Shown here piece after piece: positions 29,555-55,460 of a stretch of 64,000 bases of DNA. The position numbers and the translations under genes are program-made. This stretch comes from Lepus europaeus (taxonomy: Eukaryota > Chordata > Mammalia > Lagomorpha > Leporidae), in assembly GCF_033115175.1 (NCBI RefSeq), contig NC_084840.1, positions 75,531,179 through 75,595,178 on the forward strand, in the 5' to 3' direction. Every line of letters begins with the position of its first letter. Positions within the stretch are counted from its first letter, which is position 1. The notes under the pieces are model-generated. The model did not search any database. It saw only the letters and a list, made by a program, of their open reading frames with translations, and was not told the origin of the DNA.

Positions 29555-30925
29555 CTCTGGGGTCACCAAATACTATAAACTTTTAATCTAGGCCTGGAAT
29601 GATCCTTGTAACCTCCTAGCAGATGGTTAGCAACAAGGTCTTTACAATTTGGTATGGAAATATTGAAACATGAGACAAGGGTTACACAAGAATTGTGCAA
29701 GATATCAAACAGACCTTACCTCACATAACTGTGGAAGTCAATATGTGCCCCTAGAACTGGTGAAGAAATTTCACATATAAAGTGGGTTTAGAACAAGTAG
29801 GGGCCAGCACTGTGGCTCAACAGGCTAATCCTCCACCTAGCGGCGCCAGCAAACCGGGTTCTCGTCCCGGTCGGGGTGCCGGATTCTGTCCCTGTTGGGT
29901 TGTCCCTCTTCCAGGCCAGCTCTCTGCTATGGCCTGGGAGTGCAGTGGAGGATGGCCCAAGTGCTTGGGCCCTGCACCCGCATGGGAGACCAGGAGAAGC
30001 ACCTGGCTCCTGGCTTCAGATCAGCGCAGTGCGCCGGCCGCGGCAGCCATTGGAGGGTGAACCAACGGAAGGAAGACCTTTCTCTCTGTCTCTCTCTCAC
30101 TATCCACTCTGCCTGTCAAAAAGAAAAAAAAATAAATAAAAGAAAAGAAAAAAAAATAAATAAAAGAAAAAAAAAATAAATAAAAGAAAAGAAAAAAAAA
30201 TAAATAAAAGAAAAAAAAAGAAGAAAAAAAAAAAAGAAACAAGTAGGAAGCTGGAGTTCCAGCATCTTATTTCTTCCTAATGTTTAAACCATTTCTAATA
30301 AAACAAAAGTAATACTCAAAGATTTCTCCAGCAGTAAAAACTGAGTGTCTACTACCATGAGCTTTTGTCAGATAAAGGGAAAAATAAGGGAGAGAAGGTA
30401 AACAATGGTCCCAAACTACAAGTTGCTTTTGGGAATCAGAAAAGGCAATGAGGAAGAAATGTTTATTTTAGGTGAACCTGGATAAGTCAGTGCCCTTATC
30501 TGTACAATAATTTGATAGCTGAAGTTACTGCACAGAGTGTTTGTGAGAACTCATGGATAGTACTTCTAGTGCATTGTGATCAATCACACTGTTAGCTAAT
30601 ATCATTAGTTTCTCTAGTCTGTGCTTTTGAGTTTTTTAATCTAAAAAAAATTGCCTAACTCAATTTTTGGATATTTTCCAAATGCTTTTCTCTAGTTGTT
30701 TCATAATGTCAGCTCTGACATTTGTATCTTTGATCCACTTTGGGTTGTGTTCTCTATAGGGTATAAGATAAAGGTCTTGTTTCAAACTTCTGCATGTGAA
30801 ATCCCATTTTCCCAATACCATCTATTCAAGAGTCTCTTGTTTCTCCAGGAAGTGTTTTTCAATCTTTGTCAAAGGTAAGTAATTTGTAGATGTATATTAT
30901 TTCATTCTGAGAATTCCATTCTGTT
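29555..30925 (+). repeat. Direct segmental repeat A, second copy
   Basis: Partner of 21,478-22,400, longer because of a young C-SINE at 29,802-30,234. Flanking unique words such as tggtatggaaatattga are shared with one or two substitutions. Confidence 0.88.
29802..30234 (+). mobile_element. C-SINE with composite A-rich tail
   Basis: Sense copy inside repeat A', flanked by gaacaagtagg and aaacaagtagg. The tail at 30,118-30,234 is a higher-order repeat built from A runs, aataaataaa and agaaaa. Confidence 0.95.
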
Positions 30926-31262
30926 GCATATGCCATTGTTTTTGTTCTAATATACTACATGTATTGATTTGCATTTGTTGAGTCATCTCTAAATCCCTAT
31001 AGTAAATTTCAGTTTGTCAGAATGAATGTTGGTTTTTTTCTTGATATTTTGTTGAATTTATTTGCTAGTATTTTGTTCAAGATTGTTTGCAATATGTTCA
31101 TAGGGATATTAACCTACCATTTATTTTTACCTTTTTTTTCCCAATGCACTTGTCTGAGCATAGAATTATAGTAAAATGTGCCTAGTGCCATAAGTTTGAA
31201 AGGTTACTTTTTTTCTATTTTTGGAATACTTTGAGAACAAGTGGCCTCATATTAGCTCCTCC
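30660..31262 (-). mobile_element. Antisense L1 piece
   Basis: Contains cttttttcttgatattttg-like text and attggattgc-type L1 motifs. Continuous with the L1 part of repeat A'. Confidence 0.6.
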
Positions 31263-31277
31263 TAAAAAGTTTGGTAA

Positions 31278-31585
31278 AGGGGTCAGCATTGATGTGTAGT
31301 GGGAAAACTGATACCTGAGATGCCAGCATCCCATATGAATGCCAATTAGTGTCCTAGTTGCTCCACTTCTAATCCAGCTCTCTGCTAATGGCTTTTGAAA
31401 AGCAGTCTAATATGGCCTAATTATTTGGATCCTTATATCCTTATATCCTTGGATGAAGCTCCTGGTTCCATGCTTCAACCTGGCTCAATTGCAGCCATCT
31501 GGGGAGTTAACCAGCAAATGGAAAATCTTTCTTTCCATCTCTCCCTCTCTCTGTAACTCTGCCTTTCAATAAATAATGTTTAAAA
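31278..31585 (+). mobile_element. C-SINE, old
   Basis: Diverged sense copy. Flanks aaaaagtttggta and aaagtagtttggta. Confidence 0.85.
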
Positions 31586-31711
31586 AGTAGTTTGGTAGAA
31601 ATCATTATTGTAGCCATGGAGTCCTCTGCTTAGGCCTCTAGATTCCTAAGCAAATGGGTATGAGTCTAGCAATTTAACTATAGAGGCTGAATTCTACTAC
31701 ATCAATTCTCA

Positions 31712-32050
31712 TTTTTAATATTTATTTATTTATTTATTTATTTGAAAGCCAAAGTTATACACAGAGAGAGAAAGAAAGGCAGAGAGAGAGAGTTCTTCCA
31801 TCCTCTGGTTCACTCTCCAATTGGCCACAATGGCCAGAGCTGTGCTGATTTGAAGCCAGGAGCCAGGAGCTTCTTCTGGTTTCCAATGCAGGTGCAGGGG
31901 CCCAAGGACTTGGGCTATCTTCTACTGCTTTCCCAGGCCATAGCAGAGAACTGGATCAGAAGTGGAACAGCTGGGACTAGAACCATCGCTCATATGGGAT
32001 GCCAGCTCTGCAGGCGGCAGCTTTACCCACCACACCATGGTGCCGGCCCC
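31712..32050 (-). mobile_element. C-SINE
   Basis: Antisense copy with a (TTTA)n end, finishing catggtgccggcccc. Confidence 0.92.
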
Positions 32051-32141
32051 TATTATATTGATTCTACTTGTTCAAATGGAACGGTGAAGAGAGACAATAT
32101 ATGTACATTTAAAGGGTATTGTGTACAAGTGTGATTTTAAG

Positions 32142-32212
32142 TATACTAATTCATTGTTATTATATGGACATAACAATTATATAAACATGTGGATGCTGAT
32201 GAATTATACTCA
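32142..32212 (+). repeat. 71-bp direct repeat, left copy
   Basis: Begins tatactaattcattg and ends gaattatactca. It is identical over all 71 bases, by eye, to 47,628-47,698. Together the copies bracket the block that carries the FIP1L1 segment. Confidence 0.93.
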
Positions 32213-32279
32213 ATTAAGTTCACATTTAAGAAAAGTCTACCATATGTAGAGTTCACAATCACTAATTTAAAAAAAAAAA

Positions 32280-32600
32280 AAAAATAAGCCAGACATAGAT
32301 GGACAAATATATGATTCCTCTTATATGGGGTATCTGAATAAGCAAACCTAGAAAGTAGAACAGAGGCTATCAGGGTCTGTGGGAGAGGAGAAAGGAGTTA
32401 TTATTTAATGGGTATAGAGTTTTGTTGGGGATGGCGAGAAAGTTTTAGATACAGAGATCACAGTGATAATAAACACACTGTCAATGTAATTGCAGTTACT
32501 AACACACAGAACAAAAAGTGTGATTGTTTTATAATAAATAAGCAAATGCAACATTACATAACCTAGAAAAATTTTTTACAATTCTTACAATTTTTCTTCC
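32280..32600 (+). mobile_element. Ancient L1 fragment, sense
   Basis: Starts at an A run, then aagccagacatagatgg and aacagaggctatcaggg. Confidence 0.6.
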
Positions 32601-32713
32601 AATAAATGAGTATTTCAAAACTGGCTTATTCAGTTAGATGGAGACTTGTTATAAAAATCAGGCAAACAGCTGTTAAACTGTGGTAACTAGATATCTTAAG
32701 ATATACGATTCCC

Positions 32714-33360
32714 AGGGCCGGCACTGAGATGTTGTGGGTAAAGCTGCTGCCTTCGCCACTGGCATACCATTTGAGTACCAGTTTGTGTCCCAACTGCTCT
32801 ACTTCCAATTGAGCTCCCAGACAATAAGCCTGGGACAGCAGCAGCAGATGGCCCAAGTGCTTGGGTCCCTGCCATCCACATGGGGGACCCAGATGGCAGA
32901 GTTTCAGGCTCTGGTGTTTGGCCTGGCCCTGCCCTAGCCATGGTGGTCATTCGGGGAACGAACCACATATGAAAGATCTCCTTTCCCTCTCTTTCTTTAT
33001 AACCCTGCCTTTCAAATAAATTAATCTTTTTTTTTTTTATTTGACAGGTAGAGTTACAGACAGTGAGAGAGAGAGAGAAAGAGAGACAGAGAGAAAGGTC
33101 TTCCTTCCACTGGCTCACTCCCCAAATGGCCGCTATGGCCGGAGATACACCAATCCGAAGCCAGGAGCCAGGTGCTTCCTCCCAGTCTCCCATGAGGGTG
33201 CAGGGGCCCAATCACCTGAGCCATCCTCCACTGCCCTTCCAGACCACAGCAAGAGCTGTGGAAGAGGGGCAGCCAAGACTGGAACCCAGCACCTATATGG
33301 GATGCTGGTGCCAAAGTTGGAGGATTAACCAAGTGAGCCACGGCGCTGGCCCAATAAATT
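32714..33360 (+). mobile_element. C-SINE with a second C-SINE inserted at its tail
   Basis: Sense copy (32,714-33,015). The word aataaattaatctttt recurs on both sides of the insert, near 33,016 and 33,352. Confidence 0.9.
33033..33351 (-). mobile_element. C-SINE, nested
   Basis: Antisense copy ending gagccacggcgctggccc. Inserted in the A-rich tail of the previous SINE. Confidence 0.94.
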
Positions 33361-33589
33361 AATCTTTTAAAAATAAATTAATTCCTGCTTTTTTCATCTT
33401 CCTAAACGCCTCATCCAGAAATACATATCCATGCACTTCCATATCAGAAAAATGCTTTAAAATTAAAAAAGCGTCTAAGACATGCTATTATAGAAAACAA
33501 ATTTCAGTAATACTGTCTTCCTAATATAGGTTCTGATTTATTTCAATATAGTTAATAAAGAAAATAGAATTTCAAACCTTCCAATTGTC

Positions 33590-33740
33590 TGAGTTAGGAT
33601 TCTAGTTCTGCTATTTTCTGGCTACTGCTTATACTCCTTAAGCTCCAGTTTCCTGAGCTGCAGAACTGCTCTAGATGTTGTTCTATAATGAAATGAGCTA
33701 ACACACGGGCTGTTCTTAGAAGAGTACCTTCGAAAGTGAG
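33590..33740 (-). mobile_element. MIR
   Basis: Antisense MIR: ttctagttctgctattttc, then cagtttcctgagctg and aaatgagctaacacac. Confidence 0.8.
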
Positions 33741-34400
33741 TTATTTCAACAATTACTCAGAAAACACAAAGCTACAATTGCAATGAAAAAGTTAATACTA
33801 GTGAACCTATTTTCTGGCTCAGTGGGAAATGAAAACGACAGAGGAGTCAGACCCAGCAGTGTTGGTGTCCAAGCTACTGTTAGCACCGCTGCAGGGCATT
33901 CCATCATACCCGGCCGTGTTTCCAGAAGTCTCCTCAGCCTCCTCAGCCGTCTGCAGACGTAACCTTCTCTAGTCTCCAAACGAACCCATTACAGCCAAAG
34001 GTACTGTCCTCTCTGTGTCACTAACAACACTTCCTGCATGTCTGCAGAAGTGCGGGGGAGGAAAAGAGGAGCCCGTGTCTCCTGTTCTGTCCACTGACAG
34101 GAAAAGAGCTGGGTTTCTCGCCTCCCAAATGCTAAGCACTGTTTACTTGAGCAATGAGCTGTGTCTTCAAACCACCATGAAGGGCTGGCCGCAAACTTTA
34201 TCCTCCAAACCAGGGCATTTCTCACACTGAAAAACAGTAATTATGCTAGGATAAAAGGTATAAAAGAGGATTATTCCAGTCAAACTGGATGTACAGCCAC
34301 CATTTACATGGGTGTTCTCTAAAACAAAGGCATACATTACTATATTTTGCCTCATCACAAACTTTATTTTAGTCTTAAAATTTTATACATTAGCAATCTA
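33741..34400. other. Unassigned DNA
   Basis: Two overlapping frames of 70-78 codons show no known domain. No splice context supports an exon. Confidence 0.35.
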
Positions 34401-34407
34401 ATGTGAA

Positions 34408-34607
34408 CAAAGCCAGGAGCCAGGAGCTTCTTCTGGGTCTCCCACGTGGGTGCAGGGGGCCATGCACTTGGGCCATCTGCTATTGCCTTCCCAGGCCATA
34501 GCAGAGAGCTGGATAGAAAGTGGAGCAGCCAAGACTCAAAGCGGTGCCCACAGGGGATGCCGGCACTGCAGGCAGTGGTTTTACCAGCTACGCCACAGTG
34601 CCCCGTC
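34408..34607 (-). mobile_element. C-SINE, 3' part missing
   Basis: Antisense copy lacking the tail half, ending cacagtgccccgtccc. Confidence 0.88.
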
Positions 34608-34614
34608 CCTTCTT

Positions 34615-35555
34615 TCAGTATTTAAAAAAAAAAAAAGAAGAAACACAATGTTTCCCTAGGAAAGATGGAATACTTTTAAAAGAAATACCTACTAAAGACC
34701 CCTGAGTTACAGCTGTCTTTTGTCATCTGCCTGTTATTCTTCAGGTGATTTAAGTGAGAACACACTAGGAACACAGTGCAACAAATGTGCTTCTGCGGTA
34801 AGCGGCAACTGAAAACACGGCTGCAAGCAGGGCCTGCACTGAGCTGATGGGTCTCTGTGTAGGCAGTCCTCCTTCTGATGGTGTATACCAACTGTCCACC
34901 TCAAAGTCATCTCTGTTATGAACACACAAATACATTAACTCAACTAGCTTATCTAGGGAATGCCAAATATACACAAGACATCGTGACTTGCATTTAGGGA
35001 AACACAGATGAAAACACACGGCCTACACTCTCCCCAACAGTTTACATTCTAGTAAAAATAAGGAGCGATTCAGATAGCTTCTAGCTATGAATATTTCTTT
35101 TAAATATAAATTGATATCACTCAGCAAATAACCAGTTAGGTATTTCTTCAGCCAGGAGTAGAATTCATTCATGGAAAGGTGATCTAAGAATAAACATGGG
35201 AAATCTGGAGAGGTTTTTAAATATGGAAAGTACATAGCTGAGAATGAACATGAAACTGACAAAAACACAGAAAAATAATCAGCTAATCACATCAGTAACC
35301 TAAACATTATTCAAAGATTTGTCACCCTTATAAACAGGCTGTATTGCAACAAAATGGAGTAATTTTACCATTCTGAATAAAGCAAGCTTCCAGGGAAAGC
35401 CATTGCAGCAACAGCCTACAGAGTTCTGGATACACTCACACTAGCAAAATATTTTTTTTTCATCACTAACATATACTACCTCTCCCCTACTTACTTTAAT
35501 AAACAGCTAGTATCAAACAGGCAAAATCTGTCATTTGGAGACAGATCGCAGTAGG
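34615..35555. other. Unassigned DNA
   Basis: No exon or repeat recognised. Possibly an intron of the FIP1L1 copy or older flank. Confidence 0.35.
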
Positions 35556-35559
35556 CAGT

Positions 35560-36015
35560 AAACAAGAAAAGTTTAATTTGTCATTTGCAACACCATGGCA
35601 TGGACCTGGAGGAGACTATGCTAAGTACCTAAAGGAAAAGTATTACTGTGTGATCTCACTTACATGTAAAATCTAAAAAGGTAGAACTCACATGTAAGGG
35701 GTAGAATGGAGGTTAACAGACATTGAGGTGGGGGTGGGCTAAGGAATGGAGTTGTTGATCAAAGAGAACAAAGCTTCAGTTAGAAGTTTTAAGAGATCAT
35801 TGCTCAGAATGATGTCTATAGTTAATAACAATTATACATTATACAATAGATAATAGATGTTTTTGCCACCAAAATAAACATACTAGGTGACAGATATGCT
35901 AATTAAATAATTTAGTCACTCCTCGTTGTGAATATATATCCAAGCATTGTACCCCATAAATTGTATTCCGTAAATATATGCAATTATTTGCCCATTTAAT
36001 TTAAAAAAAAAAAAA
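35560..36015 (+). mobile_element. Old L1 3' end
   Basis: Sense L1 text ending ccataaattgtattcc, then poly(A) at 36,002. Confidence 0.7.
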
Positions 36016-36117
36016 TCTTAAATGAAAATTCTTTCAATTCACCTTTAGAGCCTAGTAAAGGTTAAACAGAATTACACAGCAATTCAGTATGAGGAGACTT
36101 ATCAAACATGCATTATT

Positions 36118-36330
36118 ATTTTTTTTTTTTTTAATTTTTGACAGGCAGAGTGGACAGTGAGAGAGAGACAGAGAGAAAGGTCTTCCTTTTGCCGTTGGTT
36201 CACCCTCCAATGGCCGCCGCGGTAGCGCGCTGCGGCCGGCGCACCGCGCTGTTCCGATGGCAGGAGCCAGGTGCTTATCCTGGTCTCCCATGGGGTGCAG
36301 AGCCCAAACACTTGGGCCATCCTCCACTGC
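36118..36330 (-). mobile_element. C-SINE, 5'-truncated with target duplication
   Basis: Antisense copy that stops inside the element (ccatcctccactgc) but is still flanked by aaacatgcattatt on both sides. The truncation therefore happened at insertion. Confidence 0.94.
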
Positions 36331-37677
36331 AAACATGCATTATTTTTTACTGATTAGCTAAACATGTTCAAAGACAGATTCTTTCTACATTTTATAGCAC
36401 TCTCTTTTAGTGAACAAAGTGCTCATTTAAAACACCCTAGCCTGAAGCAGGAATCACATAACTCCCTTTTGGGTTTTTTAATCTCAGCATATTAGAAGAC
36501 CCAAGAATCTTGGGTATAACCCTGATCTATGCATGGTTTGTACCCAATTTAGTTGTTAGAACACAAGAGTCACTGGACTTTAGAAATGGTGTTTTCTGGA
36601 AGAAGCACCTATTCCAGTCTTGCCGTCCTCTTTCTGAAATCAGATAACCTCTAGAGCCACAAGTCATCCTCCACAGTATTCTCCCTATCTTTCTGGAGAC
36701 CGGAGGTGACAGCACAGGAGACTCGAAGCTGAGGACGAGAGGCAGAGGCAGTGGCTGAGCACCCCAGGAAAGGACTACTCACACCCAGTACGTGGCCCCA
36801 TCCTCTAACCCCAGCTGGCCCCTAAAACCAGACCACTCTCCTACAAAGGAAAAGGGAGGGCAACCACATGGCCTTCAGGTACCTACTGTTGCTGGTAGGA
36901 AGCAGCTCCCATCCCCCCACACTTCTCTTGTCCTGAACCACACCAGAGCTGTCATCTTCGACTGCCCACCCTCTCACAAGAAGGAACTATCATTTCCATC
37001 AATCTTGTCAGTTTCATAAAAGGTGATCAAGGAAGATAAACTTAAGAGGAATAAAGAAAGAAAGGCCACTGGAAAAGACTGAAAGCAAAAATAAAAATGG
37101 AATTTGGGGATTTTTTTCTCTTTTACCACTGACTTGATTTTTAATAAATAATCAAATGCTATTAAAAATATATACTAAAAAATGTACGTTACTTTTCTAT
37201 CTCGTTTCAAAGAAGTGAATACCAGGTACCTGGCACCCAATAGCAGTCTCCTAAAAGGAAAACAATATATACAGAAGACAATCAATCTGAAATCCTTATT
37301 TCACTATTCTCATAGGATTCTGCTTTTTAACCTACGCAATTCTAAACGTATCATTAAGTCACCACATGGTGCCATGGAGGACACGTTCTGCAGCAGTTTC
37401 AGTCTGGGGATCACTGCCACCCGTTTCTGGGTCACAGTTTTACTATCTGTGCCCTTCCCTGTTGAGACACCGTTGCTCTACTGTGCGGAAACAGCAAGAC
37501 GTACATGTTTCAGTGCAAATCTATTACAGACCACTTAATAAAGCACTACCTGCCACTTGTAAGGCAATGCAATTAACCAAGATATTGTTTCTAAGTATAT
37601 ACTTTAATTACTAATTCAAAATACAAGAAACACATGTTATTTTTCTTTCAAAATCAAGTGTTTTATTTACTATTTAC
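36331..37677. other. Probable FIP1L1 intron sequence downstream of the proline-rich exon
   Basis: No further FIP1L1 exon is visible on the minus strand. A 115-bp stretch at 37,104-37,220 is repeated at 39,329-39,442. Confidence 0.45.
37104..37220 (+). repeat. Local direct repeat in the FIP1L1 copy, unit 1
   Basis: Shares tttggggattttt, taataaataatcaaatgct and gaagtgaa with 39,329-39,442; about 80% alike by eye. The proline-rich exon lies between the copies. Confidence 0.75.
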
Positions 37678-37834
37678 CTGGTGGTGGAATCAGAGGTGGA
37701 GCAGTGCTGACAGTTGGAGGAGGTGGAAGAAACGGAGGCGGTGGAAGGTGGGTAGGAGGACCTCCTGGAGGGAAAAACGGAGGTGGTTTGCTAAAATTGT
37801 TGTCCACTTCAGCAGCACATCTTTCAGAAAGGAC
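37678..37834 (-). CDS. FIP1L1: FIP1L1 proline-rich exon
   Basis: This 157-bp exon encodes [20 protein letters not shown] and continues through [20 protein letters not shown] to LIPPP. The acceptor is tttcag and the donor is gtaaat. It directly follows the LPGAID exon in the human protein. One Ser is Cys (SERC). The exons that follow in the parent are not found in the window. Confidence 0.94.
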
Positions 37835-38061
37835 CTGAAATTAGAGCACAATTAACAGGACAAATTAATATTATCAAGGAATAAATATCCTTAACTAAGA
37901 TAAATCTTAGCAAGTTAATTATACTTAATCTGAAAAAAAAGCAAAAGGTAGTTTAATTCACAGGGACATGTATTTAGCGTTGAGGGGCAGAGCAGTTTGA
38001 GTGTGTGTAGTATGTGCACTTACATACACGTGAGTATCCATTCTCTCACACACACTTTTTT

Positions 38062-38390
38062 TTAAAAAAGATTTTAGTTATTTATTTGAAAGAGTTACAC
38101 AGAGAGAGGAGAGGCAGAGAGAAAAAGACAGAGAGAGGTCTTCCATCTAATGTTTCACTCCCCAATTGGCCACAACGGCCGGAGCTATGCCGATCCGAAG
38201 CCAGGAGCCAGGAACTTCTTGCCACACTGGTGCAGGGGCACAAGGACTTGGGCCATCTTCCACTGCTTTCCCAGGCCATAGCAGAGAGGTGGATCAGAAG
38301 TGGAGCAGCCAGGTCTCGAACCAGCGCCCGTAAGGGATGCCAGAACTTCAGGCCAGGGCGTTAACCTGTTGCGCCGCAGTGCCACCCCCC
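38062..38390 (-). mobile_element. C-SINE
   Basis: Antisense copy flanked by ctcacac(a/t)c(t)ttt, ending gcgccgcagtgccacc. Confidence 0.92.
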
Positions 38391-38409
38391 TCACACTCTT
38401 TTACAACTG

Positions 38410-38475
38410 TCTGTGACCAGTGCTGTGGCACAGTGGGTTAACGCCCTTGCCTGAAGTGCCTGTTCATATTCAAAG
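38410..38475 (+). mobile_element. C-SINE 5' fragment
   Basis: Only the head of a sense copy: agtgctgtggcacagtggg. Confidence 0.75.
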
Positions 38476-38671
38476 CCTAGGAAAAACTAGATCATTACCC
38501 AAAATACTCCTATGGAATAACTGTAATAAAAAAATTCTAAAAAAGAAATAAGCTCTTTGTATAAATAATGTAGCTAGTTCTATTCTCTGTTACTCAACCA
38601 AAGTTAAAGTATTTGGGTAAAGGCAATGGAATCCCCATCACAGCCATTACCCTAAGAAAGAACCAGGCATG

Positions 38672-38957
38672 GGGCTGGCGTCCTGGCACAGTGGTTAAGT
38701 CACTACCCACAACGCCAAAATCCCACTTGGGCACTGGTCTAACTTCAGCTACTGCTCCACTTCCAATTAAGCTCCCTGCTAAAGTGCTTGAGAAAGCAGA
38801 AGATGACCCTAGGGTTGAGCCCCTGCCACCCACACAGAAGACCCAGATGGAGTTCCAGGCTCCTGGTTCATCCTGGTCCAGCCCCAGCCACTAGAGTCAT
38901 CTGGGGAGTAAACAAGCCGAGGGAATATATCTAAACCACTGTCTTTCAAATAATTAA

Positions 38958-39000
<43 letters not shown>
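38672..39000 (+). mobile_element. C-SINE with (GA)n tail
   Basis: Sense copy. The tail continues into a GA microsatellite at 38,969-38,999. Confidence 0.9.
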
Positions 39001-39001
<1 letters not shown>

Positions 39002-39328
39002 AAGAATTTAGAAAAAATGAGAGAAAAGAAGAATTAAGATGGCAATAGGTGAGACACCCACAGTAGTACTAAATTGCAAAGTAAGAGAATGCATTGACAA
39101 GGTGCAAAGGAGGGGGCGGCAAGAAAAATAACTGTTTCATGTGAGCCTTGTCACTTTAAGACGAAGGGCTTCTACTTGAAAAATAAAATAAAGCAGCACT
39201 TCAAAATGCTGGTTTGTTGTACAGATGAAAAAGGAAGGCACCGCAGAAGCACCCCAAATCCACAGAAGCAGAACAGCAAGCAAAGTGGTACCTAAAAAGC
39301 AGGACTTTTGACAAATTCTCTGAGGGAA

Positions 39329-39442
39329 TTTGGGGATTTTTATTCTACTATCACTAATCTGGTTTCTAATAAATAATCAAATGCTGTTCAAAATATATTT
39401 AAAAATGCATGCTACTTTTCTATTTTACTTGAAAGAAGTGAA
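39329..39442 (+). repeat. Local direct repeat in the FIP1L1 copy, unit 2
   Basis: Partner of 37,104-37,220 in the same orientation. Confidence 0.75.
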
Positions 39443-39684
39443 CAGGCAACATACTGTGTATATAACTTAGACTTCTCAAATATTTACTGACTTAACTTTT
39501 CCTATGTACTGACGTAAGATTCAATAATTTGTGAAAAGTTTATGCTAATAACCTGGTTCTTAGGAGTAAAGAACAGAATTATTTTAAGAAATTGTGGCAT
39601 TTTAATGCTGGGGAAAAAGAAATGATTTACACTTAAAAGATGTTAAAAACACTACATAATTTATCAGTTGTAAAAATCAGAACA

Positions 39685-40008
39685 CTGGGGCCAGCACTGT
39701 GGTGTAGTGGGTGAAGCTACAGCCTGCAGTGTCGGTATCCCATATGGGCGCCAGTTTGAGTCCCGGCTGTTCCACTTCCAATCCAGCTCTCTGCTATGGC
39801 CTGGGAAAGCAGTAGAAGATGGCCCAGGTCCTTGAGCCCCTGTACCCAGTGGGGAACCTGGAGGAGGCCCCTGGCTCCTAGCTCCAGATAAGCTCAGCTA
39901 CGGCCATTGCGGCCTTCTGGGTAGTCAGCTGGTGGATGGAAAACCTCTCTCTCTCTGCCTTTCTTAACTCTGCTTTTCAAATAAATAAATCTTTAAGGAA
40001 AAAAAAAA
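39685..40008 (+). mobile_element. C-SINE
   Basis: Sense copy from tggggccagcactgtgg to poly(A), in the intron between the LPGAID and proline-rich exons. Confidence 0.93.
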
Positions 40009-40279
40009 GACTTCAGAAAAATAACTACTAAATTCCAAAATATAGATGAATAGACATAATATATATATAAACCAAAATTTAATAAGAGGAAAAAAAAAAC
40101 ATAAAAAAATCAAAACACTTTGGACATTTTCTAAAGTACTCAGAAAAAGGACTAAAGCTGGCAGTTTCACTTCCTGGAGCTCCACTTTAATTATCCAGTT
40201 TCCTCATATCAGTCTTTCACCTGAACACAGAGGAACTGCCCTTCCCCCAGAAAGGCCACATTAAATACAGCTCAGTCCA

Positions 40280-40640
40280 TACAGTGAGCTACCAGGGAGA
40301 CACTGGGCCACATCTTTAAGTATATGGGAACACTCAGGTGGGCAGGCACGCCACAGGAAGAGATGCTCACTTCCCTCTGGAGGGAGTTCCAGTCCTAGCT
40401 GTGGTTGATTCCAGCTCCCTGCTACTATGCACCCTAGGAAGCAGCAGGACATGGCTCACGTAGCTGCGTCCCTGCCATCCATGTGGGAGACCTGGACTGA
40501 GTTTTTGGCTCCCACCTCCAGCCTGACCCAGCCTAGGTAGCTGTAGGCATCTGGGGAGTAAACCAGCAGACTGGAGCGTGCTCTCTTTCTGTATGTGTAT
40601 CTCTGTGTTTCTCTCTCAAATAAATATTTTTTAATAAAGA
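40280..40640 (+). mobile_element. C-SINE, old
   Basis: Diverged sense copy: ctgcgtccctgccatccatg and ggggagtaaaccagcag. Confidence 0.8.
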
Positions 40641-40694
40641 TTTTAGTTTTTAAACAAAAATATCTGAGATCATAAATGAAGAAGGAAAAGCTTT

Positions 40695-40998
40695 AGGATC
40701 GGCATTGTGGTGCAGAGGGTTAAAGCCTGGGCCTACGGTGCCAGCATCCGACACGGATGCCGATTCGAGCCCTGGCTGCTCTACTTCTGATCCAGCTCCC
40801 TGCTAATGTGTCTGGGAAAGCAGAGGATGATGGCTCAAGTCCTGGGGCCCATGCGCCCACATGGGAGGCCTGGAAGAAGCTCCTGGCTCCCAGTTTCGGA
40901 TCAGTTCAGCTCCAGCTTTTGTGGTCATTTGGGGAGTGAACCAGCTGATGGAAGACTTCTCTAACTCTTTCAAATAAATAAAATAAATCTTAAAAAGA
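40695..40998 (+). mobile_element. C-SINE
   Basis: Sense copy from ggatcggcattgtggtgc to aaataaaataaatct. Confidence 0.92.
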
Positions 40999-41097
40999 AA
41001 CACATCTCTCCATTAAAAAAGAAAAAGGGAAAGCTTTTGTAATAAATTTAAGAGTGATTGGCTCCATATTTTAAATCTCTTTGCAGCACCTAATATA

Positions 41098-41205
41098 TAA
41101 GGGGATCTTCAAAAAGTTCATGGAGAATGCATGTGAAGAATAAACTATGCATAGATTTCAAAACTCCTCTTGTTTTTCCACAACTTTTTGAATTCCACTT
41201 CTAAC
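41098..41205. mobile_element. Palindromic MITE-like element
   Basis: Left end cttcaaaaagttcatgga and right end ccacaactttttgaatt are inverted repeats. Second member of the family seen at 13,052. Confidence 0.6.
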
Positions 41206-41276
41206 ACATCACCACAAATATGTATTGAATGAGGCAGAGCATACACAGTCCTGCAGCTGATGTCTAAATACTCAAC

Positions 41277-41370
41277 CTGAATGTTGCTATTTTCATTCGC
41301 CCGGCGCCGGCCTTCTACTCGGCTAATGGTGATAGTCTGACCAATAACGTCGATTGCCCCAGGTAATCTC
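41277..41370 (-). CDS. FIP1L1: FIP1L1 middle exon (LPGAID exon)
   Basis: This 94-bp exon begins one base into a codon and encodes [20 protein letters not shown] and then [11 protein letters not shown], as in the human protein. The acceptor is ttgcag and the donor is gttgag. The incoming phase fits exon 3 (phase 2) but not exon 4. Confidence 0.94.
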
Positions 41371-41518
41371 CTGCAACATACAAATACAAGAAATTCAGTT
41401 TCACCTAGTTAGAAGGTTTAAAAGTATTAAGTGACAAATAAAAACTAAAACCTTTTGTAATATATTCTCAACTAACATGAAGTTCACAACATACTTTGCA
41501 CTGTTACAAAAAATCTTT

Positions 41519-41863
41519 TTCTAAGATTTATTTATTTGAAAGGCAGAGGTGGGGGTGGGGGGGAGAGGGAGAAAGAAAGAGAGAGGGAGAAAGAGAGAGA
41601 GAGAATCTTCCAACTGCTGATTCACTCCCCAAATGGCCGCAGTAGCTAGGGTAGGGCCCAGCCAAAGCCAGGAGTTTGAACTCCATCCAAGTCTCCCACA
41701 TGGGTGCAGGGGCCCAGGGACTTAGGCCATCATCCCTTGCTTTCCCAGCTGCATTAGCAGGGAGCTGGATAGGAAATGGAGCAGCCAAGATTTGAAGCTG
41801 TACCCATTTGGGATGCTGGCACTGCAGATGGCAGTTTAACCCATTATACCACAACATGGGCCC
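41519..41863 (-). mobile_element. C-SINE, old
   Basis: Antisense copy with a G-rich start and GA tracts, inside the interval where FIP1L1 exons are missing. Confidence 0.9.
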
Positions 41864-41870
41864 TAAAATT

Positions 41871-42490
41871 GTTTTATTAGTATACTAACATACCCAGAAA
41901 CATCATAATGAGTAAACTTTCATTGCTTGTATAGCTTTTTGATAGCCTCCACCTGAATTTATCTTTACAGAACTGAATTAGTCTATGTAGACAGATGAAG
42001 TAAAATTTGTTAGCCACCACTAGAACACAAACCATAGTTCTATTAGAGAAAGTTTGAAAAGTGCCCACAAAAGCTTAAAAAGAAGTACTGCTCATTTTTA
42101 AATACACAGGATATCTTCCTTAATGATATATTCCAAGCATTAAAAAAAAAAGGGGGAATTAATTCTCCATTTCTGATAACTTGGTTTTAGATAAAAACGT
42201 CAAGCAATTGAAACACCTGTTCTACCTCCAATTGTACACAAAACCTCTTTAGAGTTTACGTACAGGAAGATAGGGAAAAGTTAGTCTACTACAAAATAAT
42301 GCTGCAAGTTTAACAGAGAAATATATTAAGTTAAATTTTTTAAAAATTAAAATAATGTCAAAAGCTATCTGTAGTTGAACAGAGAAGTGTATGCAAATTA
42401 GATTCATTTCTCTTTATCTTTCAATTCTAAACAATTCTGCTTTTACTACTTTACAGAGGTAAAATAAATTACAGCTCTGAATCATAACTA
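41871..42490. other. FIP1L1-copy intronic DNA without exons
   Basis: Searched on the minus strand for the acidic SDSDSDDDEDD exon and the Fip1-motif exons; none seen. Confidence 0.5.
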
Positions 42491-42504
42491 TTTAAAATTT
42501 AGTT

Positions 42505-42821
42505 TTTATTTATTTATTTATTTGACAGAGTTAGATAATGAGAGAGAGACACAGAGAGAAAGGTCTTCCTTCCGTTGGTTCACCCCCCACATGATCGCTA
42601 TGGCAGGCACGCTGTGCCTATCCGAAGCCAGGAGCCAGGTGCTTCTTCCTGGTCTCCCATGCGGGTGCAGGGCCCAAGCACTCGGGCCATTCTCCACTGC
42701 CCTTCCAGGCCACAGCAGAGAGCTGGACTGGAAGAAGAGCAACCAGGACTAGAACCCGGTGCCCATATGCGATGCTGGCGCCGCAGGCGGAGGATTAACC
42801 AAGTGAGCCACGGCACCGGCC
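42505..42821 (-). mobile_element. C-SINE
   Basis: Antisense copy with target duplication taaaatttagtttt. Confidence 0.95.
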
Positions 42822-42840
42822 CTAAAATTTAGTTTTAATG

Positions 42841-43045
42841 ACTCCAACTGCCTGCTAATACAGCTGTGGAAATGGCCCAAGTAATTGGGTTCCTGGCACA
42901 GCAAAGTGGGAGAACTGGATTTGGTTCCTGGCTCCCAGCTTTGTTCCCAGCCCAGCCCCTGGTAGCCTCAGGAGTCTGGGGAGTTCATTAGCAGATAGTT
43001 GTTCTATCTCTTCTGCCTAGCAAGTGAAAGCTAAAATAAAAAAAG
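42841..43045 (+). mobile_element. C-SINE, 5'-truncated, old
   Basis: Sense 3' half: ggcccaagtaattgggttcc, ending in gctaaaataaaaa. Confidence 0.75.
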
Positions 43046-43373
43046 CTAAAGGGAAACACATTTTTAAAAATCTTTCACACTGAAATTTAGGCTATGGGAC
43101 TCAATGTTTGCTCTGAATAGCAAACTCTGTATGATCTATTTAGGTGACAGGTGACCAGTTTTCCGGAAGCCCTTGCACATGCTATGTCCTCGCCTCTATT
43201 TTCTCCCACCTAATTCCTACACGTGCTTTCGATGGCACCCGATGAAAATGTCTGAAGGGTGTAGCTCACACCCAATACTAAAAGCGATGTTAAACACTGA
43301 CTCTTTCTAAGTGAACTGTGAAGTTACAAAGATTTTAAACAGGAAAGTAACTGGACTTCGAGGTCTATGTTAC

Positions 43374-43431
43374 CGGTTTTGGTACGCCATTTTCAGCGGC
43401 TTCATCTTCAACCCCAGATGGAGGATTAGCA
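43374..43431 (-). CDS. FIP1L1: FIP1L1 exon 4
   Basis: This 58-bp exon completes a Ser codon and encodes [19 protein letters not shown], matching human [20 protein letters not shown] with conservative changes. The acceptor is tttgtag and the donor is gtaaca, a weaker match at position +5 than its neighbours. It ends in phase 0, which is incompatible with the next exon present here. Confidence 0.92.
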
Positions 43432-43532
43432 CTACAAACAGTAACATAAGTGCACATGTCAGATACCACGACTCAGAGAGGCAGAAAAAGTTAACTGAAA
43501 AATAGATCTTAGTAAAAAAAATAAATAAATAA

Positions 43533-43657
43533 GACTGAGCGGGAGGAGGAAGAGGGGTGGGAATGTGGGTGGGCATGGTGGGAAGAATCACTATGTTCCT
43601 AAATTTGTATTTATGAAACTCACGAAATTTGTATTCCTTAAATAAAAGGTTTCTTTG
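43533..43657 (+). mobile_element. L1 3' end, strongly 5'-truncated
   Basis: G-rich tract gggaggaggaagagggg, then attccttaaataaaagg. Same terminus as the L1 at 18,650-18,780. Confidence 0.85.
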
Positions 43658-44009
43658 GGGAAATAATTAGGGGGGGAGGGGGGGCGGGACTGATCATACT
43701 AGTATTTAAGGCACGTCTATTAAAGTTTCCTAGAATTATTGTCCCCACTAGATGGTAAAATCCGCCTATCTTATTCTCTATTATCCTTAATACCAAGCCT
43801 GAAAACAAGCAGAACAAAAATGCCTTCACAACTTAATACAATTTAATGATCTGAAATTTGATGATGGCTATAATTCAAGTTTTTCTTCTGATGAACTGTA
43901 AACCTGATTATTTTCAAAGACCAGGTAACACATGAACTTGTCCTTTCACAGTAAAACTGATACGTAACAATAAAACATCCCCATTCCCCTAAGACTTCAG
44001 CGCACAGCC

Positions 44010-44175
44010 CTTAACTAACATATAACACTTCTACAGCACCATAATCTAACTAGCTTCCCACACTTTAAATACGAATTACTGATTTGACAGTGGGAGTTAG
44101 CCATTGCCTTACTTTACAGATGGGAAAACTAAAGTACAAAGCAACAAAGGGATTTGGCCCTAGTCTAAGAAATAT
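44010..44175 (+). mobile_element. MIR, diverged
   Basis: Core tttacagatgggaaaactaa followed by gggatttggccc. Confidence 0.65.
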
Positions 44176-44699
44176 TGAGTAGCATTTCTAAGAAAAATGA
44201 CCGGATATTGACAAGTTCGGAGCTCTTTTAATTACATTTCTGCTAATCTCTTCTGAACTTCCTATCAAGCAGTTTCTTTATACATCAATTTAATCTCTAT
44301 AGTGGCATTTTAAACAATCTCCAACTAAAGCAAAAACAATAAAAACCTATGGGATGAAAATTACTTATAAAACAGTGCATTTGTGAACCTATACCTTGTA
44401 ATCAATTTACTTTATTTTCCAACTGAAGAAGTGGGTTATGAATAGTTAACAGATTTCATAACTATAAACTATGCTAATCCAAATTTTGTGGTTGGGATCA
44501 GGGTCAGGAACTGTGGTGACACCATAAAACTCAGCACTAAATGAAAAACATAGGAAGTGTATCTAGGAAAGGAAGAACGCTCAAGTTTCAGCTCCTCCTC
44601 AGCTATTCCCCTTTCCACTTCCCACCCGACGCATCCACTGAGGGACACAATTACATCGGTTTGGTGGGTTCAGCACAGTGCAGCTACCCAATTCCCAAA

Positions 44700-45300
44700 C
44701 ATCTGCACTGCCCCAACAGGAAATCTCAGCTGTACTGGCAGCCACTCCTTTTCAACCCTCTCCTAAAGCCTGCCAGCCACTATGCACTATCTCCAGATCT
44801 GCCTATTCTGGACACGTCACATGCACGCTGTCCTCGGCCACGGGTCTCCTTCACCTAGCGTGATGTTCTCCAGGTGCTCCCGTGCTGCTACACGGTGCGG
44901 TACTTCACTGTCCTTTTCACAGCCCAACAGTATTCCGCTGCACAGACATACCACACTCAGCCTGTCACTCATCAGTCCTCGGGCTGCTTCCGTTTTGTTT
45001 TTTTAAAATGCATAATGCGGCTATGACCACTGACGGACAGCTTTCTGAGCTGATACGTGTTTTCATTTCTCTAAGGTATCAACCCAGGAGTGGAACGCCT
45101 GAGTCACACAGTAACTCTGTTTAACCACTGGATCAAACTACCAGTCTACGCTCCGAAGCAGCTGCACCTCTGACAAGCCTACCAGCAGTGTGCTGGGGTT
45201 TCAGTTTTGACACAGCGTCACCAACACCTGTTTTATCTGATTCCAGCCACCCCAGGGTGTTCAGTGAGATGCTCTCCGCTTTCTGAATACAAACATTCTT
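44700..45300 (-). mobile_element. Ancient L1 in FIP1L1 intron 3
   Basis: Antisense L1: cagtattccgctgcacagac, gtgttttcatttctctaag and accaacacctgttttatct. Old and heavily mutated, with CpG substitutions. Confidence 0.7.
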
Positions 45301-45840
45301 TAAGGTTCCCATTTTTACCACCCTGTCCTACATTATAGGACACCAGTGCATTCGGTCAGGGTAAAGTCAGCAAGAGTATGCGTGAGTTGTTCTGAAATTT
45401 AAATTTCTACAAATGCCACACCTCCCTGATAATTTGACAGAATCAGTCTTATAACATGTTAACTTTCAACTTATATACAAAGCACTGAAGTCATAACAAG
45501 GTGCATTAGACTATCAAAAATATTAATAGCTTATAAAAGCAGTAATCTTCAGAGTTCCTCAAAACTCCTGAGGTTAAAACATCTTCCTTAGTTTAATGAC
45601 TACACTGTACATTCTGCTACTGAGCTCACGGACGAGTAGTTACTTAATAGGAAAACCTAGTCAAGTCTAACTTTAAAAACCGTCCTCCGAGCTGCTACCA
45701 AGTGGAACTGGTCTAAGAGTAGGCCTTGTTGTCAGAAGAAAGTCTGACAGACTCGGCGACCTCCAAATGCTGTCAGAAGTCATTTTGACAGTTTGCTGAT
45801 GGACTCACACAATGTGTGTACAAGATCAACAGGCAATTGC
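45301..45840. other. FIP1L1 intron 3, proximal part
   Basis: No repeat or exon recognised. Confidence 0.5.
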
Positions 45841-45846
45841 ACTAAC

Positions 45847-45886
45847 CTGGTATTTTCTTCTTCTGGCCTTTCAACTTCATTTTCAT
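45847..45886 (-). CDS. FIP1L1: FIP1L1 exon 3
   Basis: This 40-bp exon encodes DENEVERPEEENT plus two bases. The acceptor is ggtag and the donor is gttagt. It lies only 92 bp downstream of exon 2. Confidence 0.93.
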
Positions 45887-45978
45887 CTACCAAACAGAAT
45901 AAACAAGCGAGTAAGTGAAGACAGCACTCTTACAGATCAGTCTCACGCAAATCTGAAGCGGTCGTCACAAGCACTAAC

Positions 45979-46023
45979 CTAGGTCCTTGGCCAAGTCACT
46001 GTGCACGTGCACGTCCCACGGGC
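45979..46023 (-). CDS. FIP1L1: FIP1L1 exon 2
   Basis: This 45-bp exon continues in phase 1 and encodes GPWDVHVHSDLAKDL, identical to the alternative human segment as I recall it. The acceptor is tttgtag and the donor is gttagt. Confidence 0.93.
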   Translation of the reverse strand, partial: ARGTCTCTVTWPRT

Positions 46024-46539
46024 CTACAAACACAGCAGAGTTAGATCACCTTACAATCCCTCCACCAGATACACCCTTACGGGACACCAGACTTCACAGA
46101 TACAAAGTTACACGTTCACACTACAAAGAACGTCACAGCGCCGCATCTTGACAGAGGAGCAATTTTTTTTAAGACGTTTATTCCAGTTAGGTCACTGAGG
46201 AGCTGCCTGGTGCCCAATGGACACCTTTACTATGCGACGCTGGAAACCATCAAGAATGTACGTTTTAGGAAAGCAAAAGATACAAACTTTCAAACCTCGC
46301 GAAACAGACGTGGGGCCCTGTGGCTCCACTAAAGTTAAACAATCCCGATGTCAAGTCACCTTGCAAGAAGCAAGCACAAGAGAAAAACAGATTAACACTG
46401 AACAAGGTAGGCCAAAAAGGGCCACGCGGTGCTTCCACAACGTGAGTTAATGGGTCCCTAAAAAAAAACGCACAACGTCAGCTTACACGGAGACGTCAGG
46501 GGTTTCTTTACGGGCCACAACCTGGGTCTCCGAGTTGAC

Positions 46540-47330
46540 TTTAGAAGCAGGACCCCGCCAGCGAGGCGCGCCGGCAGGTGCACCCCGCACACGGCAGACG
46601 GCAGCGTCTCCGCACCGCCTTTACTCAGCCAGACTTGCACAGCGGCTGTCCCCCAGCGGCGCGAGACTCCCCGGGGGTCTCCCGGGTGGGCCCCGCAGCC
46701 AGGCCGCCGGCGACGCGGGGCCCGGGGCCGCCAGGCCTCAGTGCGGCCTCAGGCCGCGGGGGCGGCGCGGGGCCGGGCGGGCCGCCCCGGAGACCCCCGC
46801 CGAGGGACAAGGGACAGGAAGCTCCGTACCGCCATACAGCCACTCTTCCTCCTCGTCCCCTCCGGTCCCGCCGCTCAGTTCCGACACAAGGCGGTCCACC
46901 TCGCCGGCCGACATGGCCGCCCGGCCGCCCCTTCACGGCGCCAATCAACAGCCCCCAGCCAACCCCCTCCCCAGCCTCGCTGCCCCGGGGGCGCGAGAAG
47001 GGCGCGAACCCGTCGGCGAGCGAGCCAAGGAAACACGAGACGCCAATCCCGGACAGGCGGCCGCGGCGGCGGAGGCGGCCAAGGCGAGGACTTCAGCACC
47101 GGCCGCCTGCGCACGCGCAGCAGCGTCCGAGCAGCGCGGCGTCTATAGATGGCTTCGCTTCCGCGGCCGCGGCCGCGGCCCCACCCCTGGCCCGACTGCG
47201 CCTGCGCGCTGCGCGTGGCCCCGCCCCCACACAGCGTCGCGCTTGGTCTTCCGGCGTGGCTTCCGGGCGGGCAGGCGCACTGCGCCGGCGCAGCTCCCCT
47301 CCCCCGCCCTGCCTTCGCCTAGGAAGACTT
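46540..47330. promoter_or_regulatory. CpG-island promoter of the FIP1L1 copy
   Basis: About 800 bp of very GC-rich, CpG-dense DNA surrounds coding exon 1. Upstream of the ATG are NRF1-like palindromes (GCGCACGCGCAG near 47,109; TGCGCCGGCGCAG near 47,281), GC boxes (CCCCGCCCCC near 47,219) and ETS-like TTCCGG repeats near 47,250-47,266. There is no TATA box at a typical position. CpGs have not decayed, which suggests recent arrival or germline hypomethylation. The long plus-strand frames here are composition artefacts. Confidence 0.85.
46830..46914 (-). CDS. FIP1L1: FIP1L1 coding exon 1
   Basis: From ATG at 46,914 the exon reads [13 protein letters not shown] and then [11 protein letters not shown], with donor gtacgg. 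Human FIP1L1 has E where this copy has D at residue 7. It encodes the acidic N-terminus implicated in poly(A) polymerase contact. The exon lies inside a CpG island. Confidence 0.95.
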
Positions 47331-47339
47331 CCTGTTCTC

Positions 47340-47511
47340 CCCTGTCTGTGATGCTTTGTCTAAAGCTTTGATTTATCTTAAAGGTTTTTGTTTATCAGCC
47401 TTAATACGCAGTTGTTACCTGTCGGTCCTCTTCTGCAAAAGAAATCATAATCCGTCCTCTAGGAATTAACGATTAATAGTCTTGAGAAATTAATTTTAAT
47501 AGCCAACAAAA
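47340..47511. other. FIP1L1 upstream flank up to the junction
   Basis: Base composition falls from GC-rich to AT-rich. The block appears to end at 47,511, where AKR1C-derived filler begins. Confidence 0.5.
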
Positions 47512-47622
47512 GCAAATTATCTTAATGACTTAGATATAAACAGACATGCCTGTGAATGAAGACGACTGCTGCCTAGGACCACAAGGTTGTTGGAAATGCC
47601 TTAATCTGAAAAGAAATGAAGT
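47512..47622 (-). repeat. 111-bp fragment of AKR1C intron 8 at the insertion junction
   Basis: Matches 53,936-54,046 in the same orientation with about two mismatches in 111 bases. It lies immediately inside the right 71-bp repeat and next to FIP1L1 upstream sequence, so it looks like filler copied from about 6.4 kb away. The older paralogue near 20,950-21,060 is inverted and more diverged. Confidence 0.9.
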
Positions 47623-47627
47623 AGTAA

Positions 47628-47698
47628 TATACTAATTCATTGTTATTATATGGACATAACAATTATATAAACATGTGGATGCTGATGAATTATACTCA
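47628..47698 (+). repeat. 71-bp direct repeat, right copy
   Basis: Exact copy of 32,142-32,212 in the same orientation. Sequence on the two outer sides differs, as expected for duplicated target sequence or templated filler at an insertion junction. Confidence 0.93.
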
Positions 47699-52033: not shown

Positions 52034-52076
52034 TTAATATTCATCAGAATATGGGTAATTTGGATGTTCAATAAAG
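52034..52076 (-). CDS. AKR1C exon 9, terminal coding part
   Basis: The exon begins after a tttttag acceptor, completes an Ile codon split by intron 8, and encodes FIEHPNYPYSDEY followed by TAA. The family's usual C-terminus is HPNYPFSDEY. The predicted full protein is 323 residues, the same as rabbit AKR1C5, which supports a functional gene. Confidence 0.93.
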
Positions 52077-53516
52077 CTAAAATGAGAAAAATGCACATTC
52101 TATACTCTGTGACCACATTTCTAGAATACTAAATAAGTGGTTTCTGTGATGCTACCATTATAGAAAAATAAAATGTTTGTTTTCATACTGGTTTTATTAT
52201 CCAACTTATATTCATGAGCATGACTTTATGGTAAATATATTTAATCATACTCAAAGTTTTCAAATTATATTTCTTTACTTGGAACTTAGCATACATTTCA
52301 TACACAATAAAAAATTCAAACATCTCTCACATAGCTGCATCTGTAAATTATGAAAGCCATACACAGTGCTATCTTACATCATATTTTCAAGGATAATAGA
52401 AACATATTTGAACATACTGTTCAATACTAAAAAGAGTTCACAGGTTATAGGTTACTGCTAGCAATTTGACATCATTTGTATTAATTCTTCAATTATTTAC
52501 TTACAGTCCATCATGCATAGCTTAATATATGATAAAATGAATTTTATTGATGAGACAGTGTTCAGTGTCCAAATGCTTCCTGTATTATTTGCATATTTCT
52601 ATATTTTCCTAACTACTTAAGATATAAAGTGGCAACACACTCAATACTTATTAAAAATGTTTATGGGTGTAGGAATCATACATTGCTTGCCACTGTCTTT
52701 GCCACTCTCCTAAACTTTCCATTATGTCTCTGCTATAGTTTTCAATTTTTATAGTAATCAAATATTAAAATTATAACACATCTACCAATTTTGAATATGT
52801 ACATTTTGCAATACATTAAACTTTTTTATTCATTTTTATCTTTATTTCTACCACAAAATTAGATTCTTTAGGTGGAATTAATAGAAATTCCTTACTATAA
52901 ACATTTATAGAAATTTTGTTTATTGGACAAAGGAGAGAAAAGATATTTCACTGGCTATATTCTCTTTCATTTTTATTTTTATTACTCCATTTTGATCCTT
53001 ATTTTGAGATCTACCTTTAAGAATTCATCCTCTGCATAGAGATTTCCATATGTCAGAAAATCATACCCAATGTTTCTATTAACTTTGTAAGGTCAGCCTT
53101 TGTAAAGGTGAATGAAGGATTTGAGTCCTTAACAAACACACAGTGAAAAGGAAGGGGAAAATATCAAACTAGAAATACATTATTTTACAAGTCTGTAATG
53201 GATAATTCCATACAAAGGGATATGTATTTCTGCATAAGGACATTATAAATACTAATCTGTATACTTATTGAACAGGTTTGCATTAGTATTACTTTCTATA
53301 CTTATTATTAGGTAGATATTTATGCATAAAAGATCAAGGGTGTTATTGAGAGTAATCCAAAAATTAAAAAAGCTCTCATGAAACAAATTAATGTCTCAAG
53401 GCTTCTTTCCATCCATTCTTGAAGCTATATTTGAAATGGATATCATCAAACCTAAGGTTCATTGGGTATTTCTTTAGGCATTACCCAATCTAATAGATTT
53501 ATTTTCTTTATGATTT
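52077..53516 (-). other. AKR1C intron 8, unique part
   Basis: AT-rich and free of SINEs; no other feature recognised. Confidence 0.6.
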
Positions 53517-54497: not shown

Positions 54498-55460
54498 TTT
54501 AACCAAGAGAAATTAAATCAGCTTATGAAGTGTCATTTGAATCTCCATGTTTACACACTTCAATTCACATTAGCTAAGATATGAGATCAACCCATATGTC
54601 CATCATCTGATAACTGGATAAAAAATTCTGGTTTATATACACAACGAAGTAATACTCAGCTATAAAAGAAGGAAATTCTGTTTTTCCAACAGAGTGGAAG
54701 CAACCGAGGAGAATTATGCTTAATGAAATAAGTGATACCCTAAAAGACAAATATATGTTTTCTCTGATTTGTGGTAGTTAACATATAGAATGCACACATG
54801 CAAGCCGGCGCCGTGGCTCCACAGGCTAATCCTCCACCTAGCAGCGCCAGCACACTGGGTTCTAGTCCCGGTCGGGGCTCCGGATTCTGTCCCGGTTGTC
54901 CCTGTTCCAGGCCATCTCTCTGCTATGGCCTGGGAGTGCAGTGGAGGATGGCCCAAGTGCTTGGGCCCTGCACCCCACGGGAGACCAGGATAAGCACCTG
55001 GCTCCTGCCTTCGGATCAGCGCGGTGTGCCGGCCGCAGCGTGGCGGCCATTGGAGGGTGAACCAATGGCAAAGGAAGACCTTTCTCTCTGTCTCTCTCTC
55101 ACTGTCCACTCTGCCTGTCAAAAAAAAATCTAGAATGCACACATGTAAACACCCACACAAACACAACTGAATGTAGAAGGGTGAAATTGACATCCTATGA
55201 TTTGATTATTCTTTATAGCTCTTGTGTATATTCCTGTGGAACAGTCCTTCAATTTTTTTACTTATTGAACACAATATTTAGTTGAGCATTAACTCTGTGG
55301 TTATAAAATCAATTGAATTAATGCTATCAAAAATTAAAAGAATAACGAAAGGAAGATGGAGAGAAGGACCAAAGGAGGTAAGGAGGTATCAATTTGTCTT
55401 AGAATTGTGTCTATGAAATATATACTTTCTGTTGTCTTTATGTTAATCATAAAAATTTTA
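54420..55460 (+). mobile_element. L1 3' region in AKR1C intron 7
   Basis: Sense L1 text (attagctaagatatgagatc, ggataaaaaattctgg) split by a SINE and running to a degraded 3' end. Antisense to the gene. Confidence 0.75.
54803..55129 (+). mobile_element. C-SINE, young, in intron 7
   Basis: Sense copy with target duplication tagaatgcacacatg. Confidence 0.96.

Follow-up and report, generated by a model that had tools for sequence, protein, structure and literature searches.

How did part of a FIP1L1 gene, with introns and a promoter region, come to lie beside an AKR1C gene in the hare Lepus europaeus? The question is raised by a stretch of 64,000 nucleotides, hereafter the window (C18:75531179-75595178, where C18 is our label for contig NC_084840.1, in a genome assembly of 2.93 Gb and 649 contigs); positions given without a contig label are those of the window. 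At window positions 32213-47516 we found a patchwork copied from two pieces of FIP1L1, a gene that is present in full on another large contig, C10. The insert goes back to a germline, DNA-level, interchromosomal patchwork duplication 3' of an AKR1C gene and is most likely an unprocessed and truncated FIP1L1 pseudogene. As to its making, we favor, with a probability of about 60%, break repair in one event with several template switches, resembling fork stalling and template switching (FoSTeS) or microhomology-mediated break-induced replication (MMBIR).

Origin of the insert

Comparison of the window with C10:122390001-122520000 by blastn, at an identity of at least 93%, gave three blocks: window 32212-36121 matches C10:122449432-122453347, 36330-42841 matches C10:122453329-122459843, and 42839-47516 matches C10:122492535-122497237. 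The first two blocks are split solely by a short interspersed element (SINE) at 36.1-36.3 kb, and together they form segment A (32213-42841, minus strand), a copy of C10:122449433-122459843 that contains introns of FIP1L1 and the exons encoding residues 308-392. The third corresponds to segment B (42842-47516, minus strand), a copy of C10:122492538-122497237 that comprises the promoter region with its CpG island and coding exons 1-4. Both segments keep the parental order and orientation, and the 32,694 bp that separate blocks 2 and 3 in the parent, which encode residues 77-308 including the Fip1 motif, are missing from the copy. Measured against the usual bounds for an interspersed copy (at least 1 kb, at least 90% identity), the two pieces reach 10.4 and 4.7 kb at 98.6-98.7% identity by substitutions.

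The exon content was established by tblastn with a FIP1L1 protein query. Six exon matches were obtained on the minus strand of the window (residues 1-29, 26-43, 43-55, 57-85, of which the exonic part ends at 76, 308-340 and 339-392), while the matches on C10 span residues 1-594, with none for residues 213-233. By this measure the copy lacks residues 77-308 and everything past residue 392. An earlier note on this stretch, made from its letters, had described six FIP1L1 exons and a promoter; the six matches and the CpG island bear this out, although the exons are not consecutive, being the first four and two later ones. In searches of the whole genome, 401 bases of segment A found 2 matches, and segment B found two long matches plus 38 short repeat matches among the best 40 of 3062 candidates.

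The donor has been retained: FIP1L1 is still complete on C10, and the locus on C18 is partial, so that the two distinct loci that the earlier note had named as a check do exist and the change is a gain of copy. The transposition that it had proposed, understood as a move, is hence replaced by a copying event. Its claim of a DNA-level event holds, as introns and promoter are present and no poly-A was found at the insert ends beside the 71-bp direct repeat that flanks them. L1-type retroposition of a FIP1L1 RNA would account for such a repeat and for nothing else; it conflicts with the presence of introns and of sequence upstream of the ATG, and with the lack of poly-A at the ends, and we give it next to no chance. 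Besides, 71 bp is long for a target duplication of the L1 type.

The target site and the four junctions

The insert and a short filler on its right are bracketed by an exact direct repeat of 71 bp, whose copies lie at 32142-32212, abutting the insert, and at 47628-47698 (both on the plus strand). The outer ends of this repeat, 32142 and 47698, coincide exactly with the bounds that the earlier note had drawn. The right flank of the insert matches AKR1C paralogue regions on the same contig at 76.79 and 76.84 Mb. We aligned both places to the window flanks brought together with the insert removed. C18:76794001-76796500, taken as its reverse complement, aligned over its entire length (2577 columns, 87.2% identity) straight through the join, and C18:76838301-76841200 aligned through it over 302 columns at 80.8%. 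Both paralogous sites examined hold a single copy of the 71 bp. It follows that the 71 bp were single before the insertion, that the join gained just the insert and the duplicated 71 bp, and that the repeat is a target-site duplication, which confirms what had been noted as identical flanking repeats; a tandem 71-bp repeat already present at the site is ruled out by the same observation. These two empty sites are the strongest evidence that the arrangement is biological. The genome search with the 71 bp did not list the empty site at 76.794 Mb, whose 71 bp were seen by alignment instead, and a search of a limited sequence set for a repeat spanning the empty site was unproductive.

The donors, the order and orientation of their pieces, the target duplication, the paralogous empty sites and the four junctions are all directly readable. 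At the left junction the 71 bp of C18 are followed by the C10 piece, with one A common to both. Junction 2 joins the two C10 pieces over the 3 bp TGA (42839-42841), where the parental 32,694 bp are absent. At junction 3, the 5 bp GCAAA (47512-47516) are common to the C10 piece and to a templated filler on the plus strand (47517-47622), a 106-bp copy of AKR1C intron 8. Finally, junction 4 consists of five untemplated bases, AGTAA (47623-47627), after which the second copy of the 71 bp begins. Three of the junctions thus share 1, 3 and 5 bp, and the remaining one carries the untemplated bases.

The filler has seven other matches in the genome. The best, with two mismatches each, are in the AKR1C gene of the window (53941-54046, plus strand) and on an unplaced contig, C604, and a match at C18:76789290 has one mismatch more. 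Because it has the same orientation and lies 6242 bp beyond the duplication, window 53941-54046 is likely to be the donor. Both filler bases that differ from the best sources (47610 and 47616) are T to A changes within at most 13 bases of the junction; the pair could reflect error-prone synthesis at a switch, or chance.

Divergence, age and integrity of the assembly

Segment A differs from C10 by 141 substitutions in 10378 aligned bases (1.36%; Kimura two-parameter (K2P) distance 0.0137) and segment B by 59 in 4665 (1.27%; K2P 0.0128), that is 1.33% overall (200/15043), with 33 gaps in all, one of them being the SINE. The like divergence of the two segments, together with the 2 mismatches in 106 bases of the filler, fits one age. 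The SINE, which we take to belong to the C-type family, is 5'-truncated and has a short target duplication, AAACATGCATTATT (36111-36331, minus strand); it is absent at the C10 position and private to the C18 copy, and was therefore inserted after the FIP1L1 duplication. With the rate of 2.8e-9 per site per generation, the generations of 2 years and the calibration on an 11.8-My rabbit-hare split given in PMC6065068, the computed age of the copy is about 4.6-4.9 My, and the event had been rightly called recent, or at least fairly so. The insertion may be younger, as the donor haplotype may already have differed from the reference. The hare-rabbit divergence implied by the same calibration is about 4.4%, and the insert is therefore expected to be absent from the rabbit.

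The earlier note had feared an assembly chimera. Such an artifact, or a misplaced haplotype, would find some support in a 3.7-kb copy of window 30444-34129, including the left junction, at C18:69232783-69236478. This copy lies on the same contig 6.3 Mb away, ends at a run of 200 N and shows 3 mismatches and 22 gap bases in 3702 columns; within it, at C18:69234484, is a third exact copy of the 71 bp. A second insertion there was considered and dropped, since the site belongs to this near-identical stretch ending at the N run. The stretch is probably an assembly duplicate at a contig end and possibly a true, very recent duplication. For the insert itself, a chimera is made very unlikely by the SINE private to it and by the 164 kb around it that hold no N. 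Furthermore, 200 substitutions and 33 gaps separate copy and parent, and a target duplication with paralogous empty sites makes biological sense, unlike a misjoin.

Mechanism of the duplication

On its anatomy alone, the insert shows a series of template switches, in which other loci supplied the copied pieces: C10 for segment A, C10 again for segment B, then AKR1C, before the return to C18. The three donor pieces stand in one orientation. We infer from this anatomy a single event of replicative nature, because a chain of switches would be expected to give such an order and orientation, a piece templated close to the break, short shared sequences and a return 71 bp upstream. The process would have started with a break or a collapsed fork at the C18 site, repaired by template-switching synthesis. 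Read from left to right, synthesis would have departed from C18 where the 71 bp end and proceeded along 10.4 kb of FIP1L1 on C10; after a forward jump of 32.7 kb, a further 4.7 kb would have been copied, up to and through the promoter. The next template would have been AKR1C intron 8, some 6 kb from the break, which would have supplied 106 bp, whereupon five bases would have been added and C18 rejoined 71 bp upstream of the exit point, which would duplicate the 71 bp. A circular intermediate was rejected, as the C10 pieces stand in parental order with no permutation.

Several observations weigh against this reconstruction. The shared bases of one and three are within chance, untemplated inserts such as these five bases are typical for end joining too, fill-in of a staggered break can yield a 71-bp duplication, and the 32.7-kb loss could be a later deletion. 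In addition, the near-identical copy of the left junction beside the 200-N gap indicates that the assembly is not flawless nearby.

The first three of these points lead to the main rival. Here a staggered double-strand break with 71-base overhangs would have been filled in from either side, and two C10 fragments and the local 106-bp patch would have been joined to it by non-homologous end joining (NHEJ) or by polymerase-theta joining. The exact 71-bp duplication, the short or absent junction homology and the five untemplated bases fit this course, which explains the duplication and the untemplated bases as well as template switching does. In mouse and human cells, fill-in of 3' overhangs duplicates the overhang in tandem, with overhangs of 47-54 bp in FLT3 (PMC8355091). 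Pace et al. 2009 (PMC2671141) report chimeric repair insertions that combine a donor close by with another on a different chromosome. However, the donor gene is intact, and the 10.4- and 4.7-kb pieces must then be copies, or fragments freed from a sister or homologue; the parental order and orientation and the copying of two large pieces are less well explained, and the longest distant insert in Pace et al. is 3,424 bp, with target duplications of 4-21 nt. We regard the capture of fragments as possible, if on the unlikely side.

The fourth point suggests two steps, in which a whole 47.8-kb stretch of FIP1L1 was inserted, by template switching or by fragment capture alike, and 32.7 kb were later deleted within the C18 copy. 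The shared order and orientation of the pieces speak for it, and junction 2 is of the kind that ordinary deletions leave, with the 3-bp TGA and with SINE-like sequence close to either end. It requires a second event, whereas the filler already shows switching at this locus, and we consider the two-step course doubtful.

Comparison with known duplications and repair insertions

Damert 2022 (PMC9132208) deals with five human duplications that have large flanking direct repeats, 1-4 nt of microhomology and extra DNA at the junctions, and favors FoSTeS/MMBIR for complex junctions. As in those cases, a gene segment lies in the hare between direct repeats of the target, with short, possibly microhomologous sequences and extra or unrelated DNA at its junctions, and one human junction is likewise a complex of several fragments. 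Unlike them, where the repeats measure about 4, 9 and 27 kb when stated, the hare repeat is 71 bp and far from kilobase size, and here two paralogous empty sites and a local donor of the filler can be named.

The 20 chimeric repair insertions of Pace et al. (PMC2671141) each have at least one donor within 5 kb, and in 15 of them the second donor is on another chromosome. They share with the hare insert an ectopic copy at a break with microhomology, filler or a target duplication at the borders, and ends without poly-A. The differences are of scale: their distant pieces have a mean of 302 bp, against 15.3 kb and a 71-bp duplication here, and the proximal donors lie within 5 kb, against 6242 bp for the filler donor.

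Gu et al. 2016 (PMC5120786) report patient insertions with templated pieces and 0-5 bp of microhomology, for which FoSTeS/MMBIR template switching is proposed. The gain of a copy in another chromosome and insertions templated nearby are common to both settings, and the short shared sequences of the hare junctions may be microhomology as well. In contrast, the patient events are recent and some come with several copy-number changes, while the hare insertion is old and part of a reference assembly.

The FIP1L1 insert beside AKR1C is accordingly a clean new example of an event type already known; no published report of such a FIP1L1 copy was among the literature matches listed, in searches that did not pair FIP1L1 with Lepus. 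In most interspersed segmental duplications the marks of how they arose are gone. This one presents side by side its four junctions, a local donor of the filler, the 71-bp duplication and two paralogous empty sites. It is therefore well suited for testing replicative template switching versus fragment capture at an intermediate size, 15 kb, which is larger than the short repair insertions in Pace et al. and smaller than the large duplications known from human.

Exons, promoter region and possible product

All exon copies are on the minus strand and were located by tblastn: the coding part of exon 1 at 46830-46914, with its ATG at 46914, exon 2 at 45979-46023, exon 3 at 45847-45886 and exon 4 at 43374-43431. 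The two later exons, with borders placed at AG and GT, are at 41277-41370 (residues ~308-340) and 37678-37834 (residues ~340-392); they are the 11th and 12th by order of the tblastn matches, and their usual numbers may be one higher, since residues 213-233 went unmatched. Splice sites are intact, as had been claimed, with AG at 5 of 5 acceptors and GT at 6 of 6 donors.

The open frames of the same claim do not amount to an open gene. When the six exons are joined, exon 4 runs into the next exon out of frame and a stop follows after 15 codons, for 91 residues in total. If exon 4 is skipped the frame is restored, and reading through into the intron ends at 142 residues. Neither predicted product has a Pfam match at E values up to 1, while the parental exons with no counterpart in the copy match PF05182 (Fip1 motif) at 32.7 and 60 bits, with a cut-off of 22.7. 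The copy thus has neither of the two marks of a working FIP1L1 gene, an open frame through its joined exons and the Fip1 motif. Exonic change amounts to 5 substitutions in 479 bases with one residue altered, too few for a test of selection. Judged from these features, the copy is most likely a broken pseudogene without function at the protein level. A scan of the window against Rfam gave 0 matches.

The putative CpG-island promoter region (46450-47450, minus strand, from CpG count) holds 118 CpG against 117 in the parent, with 112 in common. Four parental CpGs of the island have become TG or CA in the copy and one has changed the opposite way, numbers too small to judge methylation; in segment A such changes number 14 in either direction. 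CpG richness at such an age would be no proof of promoter activity. Still, the region may start a transcript on the minus strand, heading away from the end of the AKR1C gene. The event has brought a housekeeping CpG island into a steroid-enzyme cluster, and its effect on AKR1C expression is testable.

A bolder reading makes the copy a new gene of the hare lineage: one replicative repair would have moved a working promoter and start codon beside AKR1C, the promoter would fire, and exon 3 would be spliced in frame, past exon 4, to the exon that begins at residue 308. The resulting protein of about 142 residues would end at a stop two codons beyond the last exon. It would retain the acidic N-terminal and the proline-rich parts, have no Fip1 motif, and might be a competitor of the parent within the polyadenylation complex. 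We hold this to be improbable.

The AKR1C surroundings

The insert had been placed between AKR1C-derived sequences, which applies in full on the right. There, tblastn with a human AKR1C3 query gave nine exon matches (68459-52037, minus strand) that make up an AKR1C-like gene, of which exons 2-9 are at 52037-63810 and exon 1 lies past the window end. On the left, including more than 50 kb outside the window, no AKR1C was found beyond one fragment of the exon-8 region at 20.7 kb; the 106-bp filler is an AKR1C piece to be added to those named before. The fragment is inverted, extends over 20176-21473 and is 88% identical to 54494-53518. The insert is therefore at the edge of the AKR1C group, oriented like the gene on its right.

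Further AKR1C-like exons were seen on the plus strand at 89061-112247 (window coordinates), some with stop codons, which suggests pseudogenes of the group. The unplaced contig C604, 1.1 Mb long, carries at 1078056-1083177 an AKR1C region like that at C18:76.79 Mb and, at 671432-671989, a cytochrome b-like stretch; this contig may represent a haplotype that was left unmerged and that carries a nuclear insert of mitochondrial DNA.

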